45,701 nt of DNA, taken from the NCBI GenBank assembly GCA_017517705.1, contig JAFWYM010000003.1, positions 1 through 45,701 of the forward strand, given 5' to 3'. The notes under the pieces are model-generated. The model did not search any database, was not told the DNA's origin, and saw only the letters and a program-made list of their open reading frames with translations. Made by a program: the position numbers and the translations under genes. This DNA comes from Alistipes sp. (GTDB taxonomy: Bacteria; Bacteroidota; Bacteroidia; Bacteroidales; Rikenellaceae). Shown one piece after another: positions 1 to 45,701 of this stretch (positions within the stretch are counted from its first letter, which is position 1; each line of letters opens with the position of its first letter).

Positions 1-528
1 GTTACTTCGATTGGAGATTTGGCATTCCGTGTTTGCAGCTCGCTGACAAGTTTTTATGGCAAATTTGCATCAGAAGATAATCGTTGTTTAATTGTCGATG
101 GAAAACTGATAGCATTCGCACCTGCTGGTTTAACAGAATATACTATTCCCGATAGCGTTACTTCGATTGGAGATCATGCACTCTCTTGGTGCGACTCGCT
201 GACAAGTGTAACTATTCCCGATAGCGTTACTGAGATTGGAGATTGGGCTTTCTATTATTGCACCTCGCTGACAAGTGTAACTATTCCCGATAGCGTTACT
301 GAGATTGGACTTTATGCATTCAGTTATTGCAGCTCACTGACAAGTGTATATTGCAAGCCGACAACTCCACCAAGCTTGGGAGAGGGTGCTTTCAAATGGT
401 ATGATGGTAGTTGGAATTTGGTCAATATTGGGTGCACGATTTATGTCCCTACAGCTTCTGTTGAGGCGTATAAGTCGGCAGCATATTGGGGCGATTATGC
501 GTCAGATATCGTTGGCTACGAGTTTTAG
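1..528 (+). CDS. BspA-like leucine-rich-repeat protein, 5' end missing
   Basis: The frame is open from base 1, so the start and any signal peptide lie outside the window; 175 residues are visible. The protein is made of LRR_5 (BspA/Treponema pallidum type) units of about 23 residues, with the recurring pattern TSVTIPDSVTEIG followed by an aromatic-rich AF.YC.SL stretch. Three to four units can be seen. The last is followed by a C-terminal cap with a TTPPSLGEGAF segment and an IYVPTASVEAYKSA motif, which is how many Bacteroidales BspA-like proteins end. Such proteins are usually exported and bind host or bacterial surfaces; that role is inferred from the family. The DNA repeats are nearly identical (GATAGCGTTACT recurs), so the copy number may vary by recombination. 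A strong hairpin follows at 561-586. Confidence 0.9.
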   Translation, partial: VTSIGDLAFRVCSSLTSFYGKFASEDNRCLIVDGKLIAFAPAGLTEYTIPDSVTSIGDHALSWCDSLTSVTIPDSVTEIGDWAFYYCTSLTSVTIPDSVTEIGLYAFSYCSSLTSVYCKPTTPPSLGEGAFKWYDGSWNLVNIGCTIYVPTASVEAYKSAAYWGDYASDIVGYEF

Positions 529-885: not shown

Positions 886-1046
886 GCGCAGCCATGGGGA
901 GCCAGGGTAGACTGGGTAGACTGGGTAAGGCGCTATCAGGGTGCTACCCATACTACCTATACTACCCATACTCCCCATATTACCCTCCCCCGAGTAACAG
1001 GAGTAACAGGTACCCCCACCCCTGTTACTGCGTTACTAAGGGGAGG
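886..1046. repeat. Mosaic nonamer palindrome, copy 1
   Basis: The order is: border GCGCAGCCATGGGGAG; a G-rich array of 9-base units like CTGGGTAGA; core GGCGCTATCAGG; a C-rich array of units like CTACCCATA; two AGTAACAGG units; the spacer TACCCCCACCC; and reverse-complement CTGTTACTG units. The two arrays can pair with each other, as can the TAACAG parts. The 18 bases before the border (872-889) match the flank of the copy near 37981-37998 exactly in inverted orientation. Confidence 0.8.
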
Positions 1047-32892: not shown

Positions 32893-32937
32893 TATTGTTT
32901 GTGTTGGCGGAGGGGCGATGTGGTTGGGGGGGGTATA

Positions 32938-33111
32938 AGGAGCTTAGGGAGTATAGGGAGTGTGGGGAGTTTAGGGAGTTTAGGGAGTATGGGGAGTGTG
33001 GGGAGTTTAGGGAGTTTAGTGAGTTTAGGGAATATAGGGAGTTATCTGATAGCGCTCTCCTTAAATTCCCTAAATTCCTTAAATTCCCTAATCTCCCTAT
33101 GACTGCGCTTT
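32938..33111. repeat. Mosaic nonamer palindrome, copy 2
   Basis: Eleven consecutive 9-base units (32941-33039) of the type AGTTTAGGG/AGTATGGGG lead to the core TTATCTGATAGCGCTCT, then to C-rich units of the type CTAAATTCC (33061-33105), and to the border ATGACTGCGC. The C-rich units are complementary to this copy's own G-rich units and differ from those of copies 7 and 8. Reading frames through it are artefacts of the 9-base period. Confidence 0.85.
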
Positions 33112-37513: not shown

Positions 37514-37759
37514 GTGGGGAGATTGGGGAGAGTGGGGAGAGTGGGGAGAGTGGGTAGGACTGGGTAGGATGGGTATAGTGGGTAGGAAGGGTAGGATGGG
37601 TAGAGTGCTATCAGCTACCCATATTACCCATACTCCCCATACTCCCCATTTAGTAACAGCAGTAACAAGAGTAACAAGAGTAACAGGAGTAACAGGAGTA
37701 ACAAGAGTAACAGGCACCCCCACCCCTGTTACTGTGTTACTCCTGTTACTCCGTTACTC
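37514..37759. repeat. Mosaic nonamer palindrome, copy 3, with TAACA arms
   Basis: The G-rich array (37514-37605; units GGGGAGAGT, then GGGTAGGAT) is followed by the core GTGCTATCAGC, the C-rich array (37614-37650; units ACCCATACT/CCCCATACT), seven AGTAACARG units (37651-37713), the spacer CACCCCCACCC, and reverse-complement CTGTTACTC units to 37759. All unit lengths are 9. Confidence 0.85.
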
Positions 37760-37763
37760 GAGG

Positions 37764-37893
37764 GAGGAAGTATAGGGAGTTTAGGGAATATAGGTAGTAT
37801 GGGTAGTATGGGTAGTTATGGGTAATTATCTGATAGCGCTCTACCCAATCTCCCCACTCTACCCATTCTACCCAGTCTCCCCATAACTGCGCT
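37764..37893. repeat. Mosaic nonamer palindrome, copy 4 (inverted)
   Basis: G-rich units of the types GGGAGTTTA and GGGTAGTAT lead to the core ATTATCTGATAGCGCTCT, then C-rich units (ACCCATTCT, CCCCACTCT), and the border ATAACTGCGC. The order is the reverse complement of copies 7 and 8. Confidence 0.85.
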
Positions 37894-37896
37894 TAA

Positions 37897-37998
37897 AATT
37901 ATAGGTAGTATAGGTAGCTATCTGATAGCGCTCTACCCTGCCTCCCCACTCTACCCATTCTACCCAGGCTCCCCATAACTGCGCTCTAAATTATGCGT
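37897..37998. repeat. Mosaic nonamer palindrome, copy 5 (inverted)
   Basis: A short G-rich part (ATAGGTAGTATAGGTAG), the core CTATCTGATAGCGCTCT, a longer C-rich array and the border ATAACTGCGC. The next bases, GCGCTCTAAATTATGCGT (37981-37998), are the exact reverse complement of the flank of copy 1 (872-889), so the repeat extends beyond the arrays. Confidence 0.85.
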
Positions 37999-38193
37999 AC
38001 TGTCGTCGTCCCACGCCTTAATAGACTCTATGTTAATATATCTATTAAGGTATTGTACTATATATACATAGCCTCCTTGGGATGGCTATACGACAGCCCG
38101 CTATGCTAAATATATATTTAACATAGTGTTGACTATTAGTGTGTTGTCGCTGTGTATGTTGCTGTTGGTATATGGCGATTGGCATCCCTACCA
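37999..38193 (-). ncRNA. Possible structured small RNA
   Basis: About 195 bases without an open frame, starting just after a good minus-strand promoter. Stems: 38101-38111 with 38116-38126 (11 pairs, 4-base loop), 38068-38073 with 38084-38089 (ATAGCC/GGCTAT), directly stacked next to 38000-38006 with 38090-38096 (7 pairs), and 38016-38025 with 38041-38050 (10 perfect pairs). The first stem has a G-U pair on the minus strand but an A-C mismatch on the plus strand, which favours minus-strand RNA. GGGATG at 38079-38084 can pair with CATCCC at 38183-38188, perhaps a pseudoknot. It does not look like tmRNA, RNase P or SRP RNA; a 6S-like RNA cannot be excluded. No T-rich terminator is seen, and the 3' stem partly overlaps sequence shared with repeat copy 1. 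Confidence 0.4.
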
Positions 38194-38198
38194 CACTG

Positions 38199-38229
38199 CA
38201 AATATACAACATTCTAAGGCTATTGTCAA
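38199..38229 (-). promoter_or_regulatory. Promoter of the possible small RNA
   Basis: On the minus strand TTGACA (38229-38224) and TATATTTG (38206-38199) are separated so that TTG and TATATTTG are 20 bases apart, the same spacing as at rpmI and rsfS. No protein gene follows within 600 bases on that strand (valS starts at 37402). Confidence 0.65.
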
Positions 38230-38270
38230 GTATTTTGACATAAATTATTTCTATTGTTTTAGAAATAATG

Positions 38271-38400
38271 GGGGCGTGGGGAGTGTTGGGTAGTTATGGG
38301 TAGTTTAGAGAGTTTAGGGAGTTTAGGGAATATAAGGAAAACGATAATTCACTAATTTCCCTAAATTCCCTAATCTCCCTAAATTCCCCTATAACTTAAA
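38271..38400. repeat. Mosaic nonamer palindrome, copy 6 (degenerate core)
   Basis: G-rich units (GGGTAGTTA, GGGAGTTTA) and C-rich units (CCCTAAATT) surround a changed centre (AAAACGATAATTCACTAAT) that lacks GCGCTATCAG. The right border is CTATAACTTAAA, followed directly by copy 7. Confidence 0.75.
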
Positions 38401-38515
38401 GCGCAGTTATGGGGAGCCTGGGTAGAGTGGGTAGAGTGGGTAGGCTGGGTAAAGCGCTAACAGATAGCTACCTATACTCCCCAGACTCCCCAGACTACCT
38501 ATACTCCCCATAAAT
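38401..38515. repeat. Mosaic nonamer palindrome, copy 7
   Basis: Border GCGCAGTTATGGGGAG, four TGGGTAGAG-type units, core AAGCGCTAACAGATAG, five C-rich units (CTACCTATA, CTCCCCAGA) and CCCATAAAT. Copy 8 begins with the same 25 or so bases. Confidence 0.85.
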
Positions 38516-38518
38516 AAA

Positions 38519-38755
38519 AGCGCAGTTATGGGGAGCCTGGGTAGAGTGGGTAGAGTGGGGAGATTGGGTAAAGCGCTATCAGGTAATTACCCATACTACC
38601 CATACTACCCATATTCCCCATTCTCCCCATCCACCCCTTAGTAACGGAGTAACGGGAGTAACGCAGTAACGGGGGTGGGGGTGCCCGTTACTCGCGTTAC
38701 TCCCGTTACTCCCGTTACTCCCGTTACTCCCGTTACTCTTGTTACTCTTCGTCTG
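38519..38755. repeat. Mosaic nonamer palindrome, copy 8, with TAACGG arms
   Basis: Border GCGCAGTTATGGGGAG, G-rich units, core AAGCGCTATCAGGTAA, C-rich units (CTACCCATA), then AGTAACGGG-type units (38640-38671), the spacer GGGGTGGGGGTG and reverse-complement CCGTTACTC units to about 38748. Here the second pair uses TAACGG in both arms, where copies 1 and 3 use TAACAG in both. Confidence 0.85.
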
Positions 38756-38766
38756 CCTTAAAATTC

Positions 38767-38790
38767 CTCACTCCTCACTCCTCACTACTC
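38767..38790. repeat. Period-7 CTCACTC tandem repeat
   Basis: Three units of CTCACTC/CTCACTA and a partial one. It is related to the array at 15214-15240. Confidence 0.65.
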
Positions 38791-44393: not shown

Positions 44394-44434
44394 TGGCGCG
44401 ATACATATATTGTACATATTATAGATATTGACGT

Positions 44435-45701
44435 ATGACCCAACAAGAGTTCTATAGCCGCTATAGCTATGACCCTACTACCGACTCGCTCGGTAGTGGC
44501 GGTTTTGGCTCGGTGTATAAGGCCTACGACAATGTCGACGATCGCTATGTAGCTCTAAAGGTATCTCCAGTTAATCCTCAGCATCCAGAACTACGTCTTC
44601 GTGAGGAGGTGAATAAGGCTAAGGGTATGCGACATACTAACGTAGCACGCTATGAGGCTTGCTATACTTTTCCTACCTTTTCTGGAGAGATAGATATAGC
44701 TGTAATGCGCTACTATGAGGCTGGAAGCCTTGCTACGGTTATGCATTCGGCAAAACCTACCCAATCAGAGTGCTATGATATACTAAGGCAGATACTTCGT
44801 GGTATAGAGTTTCTGCATACACATAATATCATACACCGCGATCTTAAACCCCAGAATGTGCTTATAGTGCACCATGCAGGTCGCTATATCCCCAAAATTA
44901 CAGACTTCGGCATATCAAAGCAACTTGAGGATGGTGTGACCTCGGCTGTGAGTAATTCGGTGCTTGGAGGCACACGCGCCTATGCCTCACCAGAGCAACT
45001 TAAGGAGTCGAAGATACGCAAGAATACCGACCTATGGAGTTTTGGTGTTATTGCATACCAGATGCTTACGGGTGAATTGCCCTTCAATTCTGGAAAATTC
45101 TCTCCCACAAGTGAAGAGGGCCGTCAGGAACAATACCGTCAGATGATCTCAGGAATACTTCCTGATAGGTTATGTAGCGTTGTAGAACCCTGGCAGAGAC
45201 TTATTAGAGAGTGTCTTATTGTGGATAATACTAAGCGTCTTGCTCATGCTGAGGATTGCTTGGCTATCCTAGATGGAGATGATATTGAAGAAGTCGTAGT
45301 TGAAGCAACTCAATTCGATGATTTAAGTATTGCATATCATTTGGAACTCGAGCCCGAGCCGGAGCCAGAGCCCGAACCTGAGCCAGAACCCGATCCCGAA
45401 CCCGAACCCGAGCCCGAACCCGAGCCCGAGCCCGAACCAGAACCCGAGCCCGAGCCCGAGCCTGAACCCGAGCCTAAGCCTGAACCCGAGCCTAAGCCTG
45501 AACCCGAGCCTAAGCCTGAACCCGAGCCAGAGCCCGAACATGAGCCCGAACCCGAGCCCGAACCCGAGCCCGAGCCCGAACCTGAGCCAGAACCCGAGCC
45601 CGAGCCAGAGCCCGAGCCTGATCCAGAGCCTGAACCAGAGCCTGAACCTGAACCCGAACCCGAACCCGAGCCTGAACCAGAGCCTGAACCTGAACCCGAA
45701 C
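44435..45701 (+). CDS. Hanks-type Ser/Thr protein kinase with Glu-Pro repeat tail, 3' end missing
   Basis: The frame starts at ATG 44435 and has no stop before the window ends (422 residues visible). Kinase motifs: glycine loop GSGGFG (20-25), VALK with K42, HRDLKPQN (134-141, D136 catalytic), DFG (157-159), [11 protein letters not shown] and [19 protein letters not shown]. From residue 306 to the end there is almost only Glu-Pro, with occasional Asp, Lys or His. Kinase and tail are cytoplasmic up to here; whether a membrane helix and sensor domain follow cannot be seen. Codon use (more A/T at third positions, AGA, GGA) differs from the upstream genes, which may mean later acquisition. It lies 41 bases after the riboflavin kinase gene. 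Confidence 0.93.
45350..45701 (+). repeat. Glu-Pro hexanucleotide repeat inside the kinase gene
   Basis: Units GARCCN run without a break to the end of the window (about 58 units). Most units are GAGCCC, GAACCC, GAGCCT or GAACCT, with third-base changes and a few Asp, Lys and His replacements. Such arrays change length easily by slippage or recombination. Confidence 0.92.

Follow-up and report, generated by a model that had tools for sequence, protein, structure and literature searches.

A candidate one-gene foldback-like element behind the mosaic palindromes of an Alistipes genome

Introduction

Between valS and rsfS, the 45,701-nucleotide stretch of Alistipes DNA analyzed here (the window) carries a composite block of palindromes (37514–38755) built from 9-base units, which raises the question of what these palindromes are and what they derive from. 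The window is contig C16 of a ruminant-gut genome of the family Rikenellaceae (G000, hereafter the host genome; 1.99 Mb, 48 contigs, 96% complete), and its RsfS protein is 100% identical to RsfS from two ruminant-gut MAGs named Alistipes. The genomes used throughout are drafts, mostly MAGs.

Results

A dispersed family of mosaic elements

Each mosaic element runs from a border through a G-rich array and a core to a C-rich array, and both this order and the 9-base unit, as described in the initial annotation of the locus, were confirmed: self-match across the block was 0.51 at lag 9, 0.43 at lag 18 and 0.38 at lag 27, compared with 0.24–0.32 at the remaining lags in the range 2–30. The annotation had counted at least six copies in the block and two elsewhere in the window. 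The two outside copies stood, one on the plus strand (886–990; border 886–901, core 930–939) and one on the minus strand with TTTAGGG-type arms (32928–33108; border 33093–33108, core 33046–33055). Inside the block the number fell to four complete elements, two on the minus strand (37764–37892, border 37877–37892, core 37830–37839, fold z −4.8; and 37900–37984, border 37969–37984, core 37922–37931, with a short distal arm) and two on the plus strand (38401–38512, border 38401–38416, core at 38454, fold z −4.7; and 38520–38630, border 38520–38535, core 38573–38582, fold z −5.1). A fifth palindrome in the block (37514–37650, plus strand) consists of a G-array, a variant core (GTGCTATCAGCTA) and a C-array, without a border. 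RNA folding of six window stretches gave z-scores of −4.7 to −10.3, and none of the 200 dinucleotide shuffles made for each stretch folded as well.

Genome-wide we found 44 mosaic elements, none within a called gene, after two artefacts (C26:16824 and C6:47817) had been removed from 46 rows; the copies are therefore not confined to the window, and the many intergenic copies and sharp 9-base period that the initial annotation expected of a real family were both found. A few elements are exact duplicates near contig ends and may be assembly duplicates. Border-to-core length followed 35+9k (35, 44, 53, 62 or 80) in 39 of 42 elements, the exceptions being 52, 68 and 118 (two of the 44 were left out for short flank, and two exact duplicates were also left out). 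Several unrelated flanks show a sharp left end at GCGCAG. Left flanks (n = 44) showed the pattern of a C-arm end in 20 cases, that is, head-to-tail copies, and the CATAATTTA pattern in 15, with both in 2 and neither in 11. On the right side, which continues into other repeats, no end that matches the border was seen. Elements lie in both orientations relative to genes, and tandem duplications are present. An element's own pair of arms matched no better than swapped arms (p = 0.087), and arm co-evolution within mosaic elements was set aside as not significant. Several mosaic elements, for example at loci L012, L025 and L059, are bordered by another dispersed repeat, close to TTCGACTGCGCTCAGGATGACA, of which a similar copy lies in L102.

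Outside the host genome, no mosaic elements were found in 60 congeners, and the strict array-gap-array pattern was present in the host genome only among 61 genomes of the genus. The border, at up to one mismatch, gave 43 matches in the host genome; out of 100 relatives, 3 had a single match apiece, all three without arrays around them. An exact 25-mer scan of a genome contig collection, which may omit the host's own genome, returned no match. Rfam held no family reaching gathering score for the palindromes, and its weak matches (33 up to E 1; best bit score 31.9, rli51, cut-off 48) were taken as chance matches to long hairpins. A plasmid origin was rejected for want of any plasmid match, as was a phage origin, with no exact pattern match in viral contigs and a single phage record (Brochothrix phage) with 45-base matches. 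With 44 dispersed intergenic copies and no match in Rfam, plasmids or the open literature, the annotation's view that this design carries no name holds.

Three hairpin families around a gene remnant

The initial annotation had treated differing unit types as variation within one family. That is not so for AGTAACAGG, whose arrays form a distinct family of hairpins with a loop of their own, GGGGTGGGGGT (the GTAAC hairpin, 14 copies in the host genome), nor for most AGTTTAGGG units in the block, which form another hairpin of TTTAGGG type (38280–38392, no strand assigned, loop GAATATAAGGAAAACGATAATTCACTAA, fold z −5.1); it is so for the element with its core at 33046, which carries AGTTTAGGG in a true mosaic. 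Three hairpin families had been merged, and a gene remnant at the center of the block had been overlooked.

From left to right, the block comprises the borderless G/C palindrome, a GTAAC hairpin, the two minus-strand mosaic elements, a middle of about 275 bases, the TTTAGGG hairpin, the two plus-strand mosaic elements and another GTAAC hairpin. The two GTAAC hairpins are the outer ends of the composite (left, 37652–37760, minus strand, apex 37707–37732, fold z −10.3; right, 38640–38748, plus strand, apex 38666–38691, fold z −9.3) and form an inverted pair with 117-nt arms that are 85% complementary. A further GTAAC hairpin (991–1045, minus strand, apex 1003–1028), abuts the mosaic element at 886–990. 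Across the 14 copies of the apex the variable apical pair is complementary in every case (10 A–T pairs and 4 G–C pairs).

The middle of the block holds an internally deleted ATPase gene on the minus strand (37985–38069, ATG at 38069–38067), recognized by alignment to the 5′ region of L101, a locus in genome RGIG5460, and to the 3′ end of the intact gene; its promoter and 5′ region precede it on the same strand (38070–38260, with TTGACA at 38229–38224 and TATATTTGCA at 38206–38197). Window positions 38000–38275 align to the 5′ region of a gene that is intact both in the host genome (C6:48045–49229) and in L101, with an alignment score of 112 against L101. The remnant retains the promoter, the ATG and about 18 codons, passes through a GTGGGA microhomology (38014–38009) and resumes with the last ~9 codons (AWDDD...); this 3′ match to the end of the intact gene scored 13.5, a value reached by none of 500 shuffles. 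Because of an early stop the window copy is dead. The gene remnant in its middle explains why palindromes cluster at 37514–38755.

Gutted copies and the intact gene

The promoter-and-5′ block occurs at four sites in the host genome, namely the window, C32 (97.1% identity to the window), C38 (92.3%) and C15 (89.2%), and four is a minimum, as the search covered 487 kb. Only the window and C32 copies have the join to the 3′ end of the gene; at C38 and C15 a 181-base segment (C38:13281–13461, C15:95077–95257) follows instead, which is 94% alike between these two sites and absent from the window. GTAAC hairpins lie inverted on both sides of the window, C38 and C15 copies and on one side of the C32 copy, whose contig ends inside the block. 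Four block copies, two of them with both gene ends, together with the intact C6 gene, make up a multi-copy gutted derivative of a gene-bearing element, as is characteristic of MITEs. No target-site duplication was evident by eye in the outer flanks of C38, C15 and C32, where the ends are obscured by repeat arrays.

The intact C6 gene likewise lies between GTAAC hairpins, and it has mosaic elements on both sides; one of these GTAAC hairpins falls inside the 3′ coding end, where it encodes SNK and VTP repeats. Among dispersed mosaic copies, the CATAATTTA flank bears a weak likeness to the 3′ end of the gene, with 10 of 13 copies at 1–19 of 500 shuffles and the remaining three at 59, 170 and 376 of 500 (uncorrected). 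GTAAC hairpins were not found in 60 congeners, searched with a narrower pattern, or in 4 other genomes; they were found dispersed only in the host genome (14) and in RGIG5460 (6, two of them at the gene), and these are the two genomes whose ATPase gene carries the hairpin. RGIG4712 has the ATPase and no hairpin fitting the GTAAC pattern, which counts against a foldback reading.

The neighborhood of the block in the window calls for caution. Window positions 38083–38610 are 100% identical over 528 bases to C32:19509–20036, the terminal part of that contig; the 16 differences between the two copies all lie at or left of 38082. An oxyR-like gene adjoins the block copy on C32. Of 80 named loci, 72 have such a gene in the vicinity of rsfS, and none has valS there. 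Because of this identity and these neighbors, the valS–rsfS join may reflect ectopic recombination or an assembly chimera. Composites sharing the outer hairpins and the middle were found independently at C38 and C15.

A helicase-like ATPase under purifying selection

The gene product is an AAA_25 (PF13481) ATPase, with E-values of 7e-9 to 1.5e-15 in four Alistipes proteins. The closest PHROGs were DnaB-like helicases (phrog_243, E 2.3e-8, in L305), and among solved structures there was a weak match to Twinkle (E 0.012); on these profile matches the protein is assigned, as a prediction, to the RepA/DnaB-like hexameric helicase sequence family (AAA_25 / DnaB-like). Pfam reported nothing but AAA_25 above cut-off, with no recognizable nuclease or transposase domain, and scans with Pfam (5 proteins), NCBIfam (1), PHROGs (3) and PADLOC (3) returned no transposase family. 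AAA_25 is the sole gene seen inside the repeats. A C-terminal winged-helix signal in L305 (HTH_24, E 0.0086) lay below cut-off.

SSB uses its tip to recruit repair and replication proteins. Ten of 27 ATPase copies have a tail ending in acidic residues and PF, and the excerpted text of PMC5872125 gives the SSB tip as DDDIPF; the resemblance suggests that the two may be functionally alike. In the ATPases of L303, L305, L306 and L314 the reading frame runs on through the downstream array, which encodes V-T-x or V-S-D repeats between the C-terminal domain and the acidic tip, so that the 9-base period equals three codons there. A translated array likewise serves as ATPase linker in several species, for example G000, G011, G040, G025 and G027. 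The dN/dS ratio was 0.12–0.19 in five pairs (dS above 1 in three), which indicates purifying selection on the gene.

Cognate inverted flanks at ATPase loci

Homologues of the ATPase, the genes assessed for cognate inverted MINISATELLITES, were present in 28 of 61 genomes of the genus. From 36 ATPase places we examined 26; six were without a locus, and L320, L327, L328 and L329 were omitted as fragmentary or distant. Arrays of 7–10-base units lie on both sides of the gene in most of the 26 loci. L312 and L323 have inverted flanks without such paired arrays, and L304 and L325 have little upstream sequence.

Flank tests were performed on the 24 loci with enough flank on both sides, which L304 and L317 lacked. 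The match between the upstream flank and the reverse-complemented downstream flank exceeded the best of 53 control loci (rsfS, ubiX and rplS; 25.4 bits) in 21 of 24 cases, with a median of 97.6 at ATPase loci versus 19.7 at controls (Mann–Whitney p = 1.3e-10) and 38.3 at the lowest positive Alistipes locus; the direct-repeat median at the same ATPase loci was 37.6. Inverted flanks were missing at L306, L309 and L325. At 18 of 24 loci no downstream flank matched better than the locus's own, and none of 10000 permutations reached the observed sum; the flanks of L307 and L308 match each other instead of their own partners. The units are species-specific yet reverse-complementary across the gene, for example TCGCTCACA ×17 with TGTGAGCGA ×14.7, and TGTAACAAA with TTTGTTACA. 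ATPase loci thus have the long terminal inverted repeats of tandem short units by which foldback elements are known (inverted flanks in 21/24, tandem arrays in most), and the encoded transposase, the other hallmark, did not appear in the scans above. Among distant homologues in other Bacteroidales families, 21 of the 25 non-own places were tested (L349 and L355–L357 were left out), and the 21 were without comparable flanks: the best reached 29.7 bits, and 2 of 21 were just above 25.4.

Short arrays in the genus

Non-coding DNA of the Alistipes clade is rich in tandem arrays of 7–10 bases. In 400 kb of the host genome, 27 of 29 arrays outside called genes had a period of 7–10, and 18 had a period of 9. 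The corresponding figures were 62 of 66 in stretches of 20 relatives and 41 of 43 in 36 named rsfS loci of the clade, bearing in mind that the gene caller, trained on the host genome, leaves some coding DNA of relatives unmasked (lag-3 multiples are raised); in 44 more distant named loci, arrays were sparse, with 7 of 8 in this range. Intergenic arrays of this kind also occur in G059 and G044, in neither of which an ATPase was detected; arrays can thus exist at present without the ATPase. In the rplS gap, G044 has a bare G-rich array, and the host genome has the same array with a complementary C arm and two mosaic elements.

Several other repeats were observed. Locus L240, in G059, has many arrays of the CTAACAA heptamer and the TTAAGACC octamer and no detected ATPase copy. 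Heptamer arrays (TCCTCAC / GTGAGGA) lie beside 9-base arrays at 38765–38790 and at L217:3263–3326, and similar heptamers are found in the relatives L104 and L230. At the start of the window (142–348), a 69-bp unit occurs in three copies, which by eye we take to be leucine-rich repeats of the BspA type; at its end (45344–45699), GAGCCC/GAACCC tandem repeats inside a called gene (44434–45700) appear by eye to encode a proline-glutamate tract.

Sites, reversal and spread

Neighbor genes differ between most ATPase loci. Among 110 rsfS loci searched, the ATPase stands beside rsfS in L101 and L104 and is absent at L100. As judged by its neighbor, the G003 copy also lies beside rsfS. The ubiX gap was discarded as a candidate empty site, being not comparable between species. 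In the sister species G051 and G017 the flanks are collinear at 93% identity and the ATPase block is reversed, with the switches falling in array-bearing intervals; as the reversed block is 83.5% identical against 93% for the flanks, a pair of independent insertions is no less possible than a single inversion.

RGIG5460 has a mosaic family of its own, of like design with a different core (GGGGCTGRCGATACYCGCGCCC) and arms of 10-base units; two copies lie next to the gene, on its 5′ side, and three further sites hold a single copy each. In G040, G015 and G004 (392, 320 and 315 kb read) cognate arrays were not found dispersed: the sole four matches, in G040, were the gene's own array.

Discussion

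On balance, we lean towards the view that the mosaic palindromes are terminal-repeat and gutted (MITE-like), non-autonomous derivatives of a one-gene foldback-like Alistipes element, which is also the simplest single account. The architecture, the matching ends, the turnover of units between species, the many sites, the reversal of the block, the purifying selection and the gutted derivatives can be read directly from the DNA. That the ATPase drives mobilization is suggested by its cognacy with the arrays, by the selection on it and by its co-distribution with them.

A full unit would consist of inverted minisatellite hairpins, a promoter, one gene for a RepA/DnaB-like AAA_25 ATPase, and inverted hairpins again. 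The C-terminal domain of the ATPase, a weakly supported predicted winged helix, would bind the protein's own arrays, and the ATPase, which in some copies carries an SSB-like C-terminal tip, would be recruited to single-stranded hairpins during replication. Template switching promoted by the ATPase could then copy arms and entire modules into other arrays. Slippage of repeat units, together with copying by fold-back, would keep both arms and both ends alike, and would explain the exact 9-base steps. More tentatively, and with rather more doubt than belief, we consider that these elements may constitute a class of bacterial mobile element without a transposase, in which a lone helicase-type ATPase recognizes its own lineage's minisatellite foldback ends and uses template switching coupled to replication to spread them; with both ends of a copy rewritten in concert, each species would acquire a private recognition code.

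The main rival holds that the palindromes are passive minisatellite hairpins, produced by slippage, fold-back template switching and ectopic recombination between arrays at harmless sites, and that the ATPase is merely surrounded by them. Arrays in genomes without a detected ATPase agree with this, as does the rplS gap, where a bare array in G044 and an elaborated one in the host genome are what stepwise growth predicts, and so does the lean of element clusters towards convergent gaps (10/22 versus 18/89, p = 0.026; hand-sorted, with some low-scoring neighbor genes, and counting the 22 of 29 clusters that have a called gene on both sides). Passive slippage accounts for the arrays; it leaves unexplained the cognate inverted pairing around one gene family, the purifying selection and the multi-copy gutted gene, and we consider it rather unlikely. 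The same mild excess between convergent genes, the strong predicted folds of the six stretches and the position of all 44 elements outside called genes would suit host regulatory elements, that is, terminators, RNA stabilizers or protein-binding sites kept by selection on neighboring genes; the failure to find them in 60 congeners, their occurrence in both orientations and in tandem, and the lack of an Rfam family at gathering score make this very improbable.

Two further readings invoke an ordinary transposase. The elements could be IS-derived MITEs, as proposed for BrickBuilt, on whose borders a transposase acts in trans while the ATPase is a passenger. The sharp left end at GCGCAG and the tandem and gutted copies are in keeping with such an origin, to which we give little credence given that no right end was seen to match the border, the right side running into other repeats, and that no transposases of Y1, the family searched, were found. 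REP or REPIN elements moved by a RAYT would likewise appear as dispersed intergenic palindromes, often in tandem or inverted. Y1_Tnp (PF01797) was detected in 0 of 13 Alistipes genomes, the host genome included, whereas the same search recovered it from 7 of the 8 genomes taken from other families and from 5 of the 14 named controls, and this origin is strongly disfavored.

Under the foldback-like reading, a puzzling class of intergenic repeats is tied to one particular conserved gene, and their spread becomes open to direct test. If the reading is true, bacteria have foldback elements that move without a recognizable transposase, and the ATPase and its array would be natural co-diversifying protein–DNA pairs across dozens of species. 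There is also a warning for metagenome assembly: loci that are unrelated can be joined through element copies that are identical, as may have happened in this window.

Comparison with known systems

REPIN/RAYT systems resemble the Alistipes system in that a gene is flanked by palindromes that are dispersed elsewhere in the genome, as the excerpted text of PMC3733652 describes; they differ in that the RAYT is a Y1 tyrosine transposase, which was not found here, and in that REPs, as characterized in the same excerpts, are 20–40 bp long without minisatellite arms. Intergenic short tandem units are known from the TAACTGA heptamers, also present in five Bacteroidetes (PMC4679880, in part), and from the G4-forming repeats of Xanthomonas and Nostoc (PMC4692102, in part), which in the excerpts of these sources are not inverted arms with a conserved core and border and have no cognate gene reported.

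The BrickBuilt repeats of Porphyromonas gingivalis, according to the excerpted text of PMC4596501, are intergenic, number 19 copies and consist of a minisatellite inside a MITE with predicted long stem-loops. They share with the Alistipes elements the order Bacteroidales, the intergenic position, the minisatellite and the predicted stem-loops. Their unit is 23 nt, compared with 9 nt in the host genome and 10 nt in RGIG5460, so that the Alistipes elements are not BrickBuilt by unit length. BrickBuilt has 12-nt terminal repeats like those of IS5-family ISPg elements (PMC4596501, in part); the same excerpts report no associated gene and do not describe the array as complementary arms around a conserved core. 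No account of an ATPase paired with inverted repeats made of cognate minisatellites was found in open-access papers, a body of literature that mostly leaves out subscription journals.

The Drosophila FB element is a foldback transposon with gutted copies. Galileo and Tetris are of the foldback type, with long terminal inverted repeats containing internal tandem repeats and with element-linked inversions, as set out in the excerpts of PMC3573991, PMC4079207 and PMC2775673. The Alistipes element is like these eukaryotic foldback elements in its terminal inverted repeats made of tandem repeats and in the reversal of its block between two species. According to the same excerpts (PMC3573991, PMC4079207, PMC2775673), Galileo encodes a P-superfamily transposase, whereas the Alistipes element carries a lone RecA-fold ATPase; it is also bacterial, and its 7–10-base units are different in each species.
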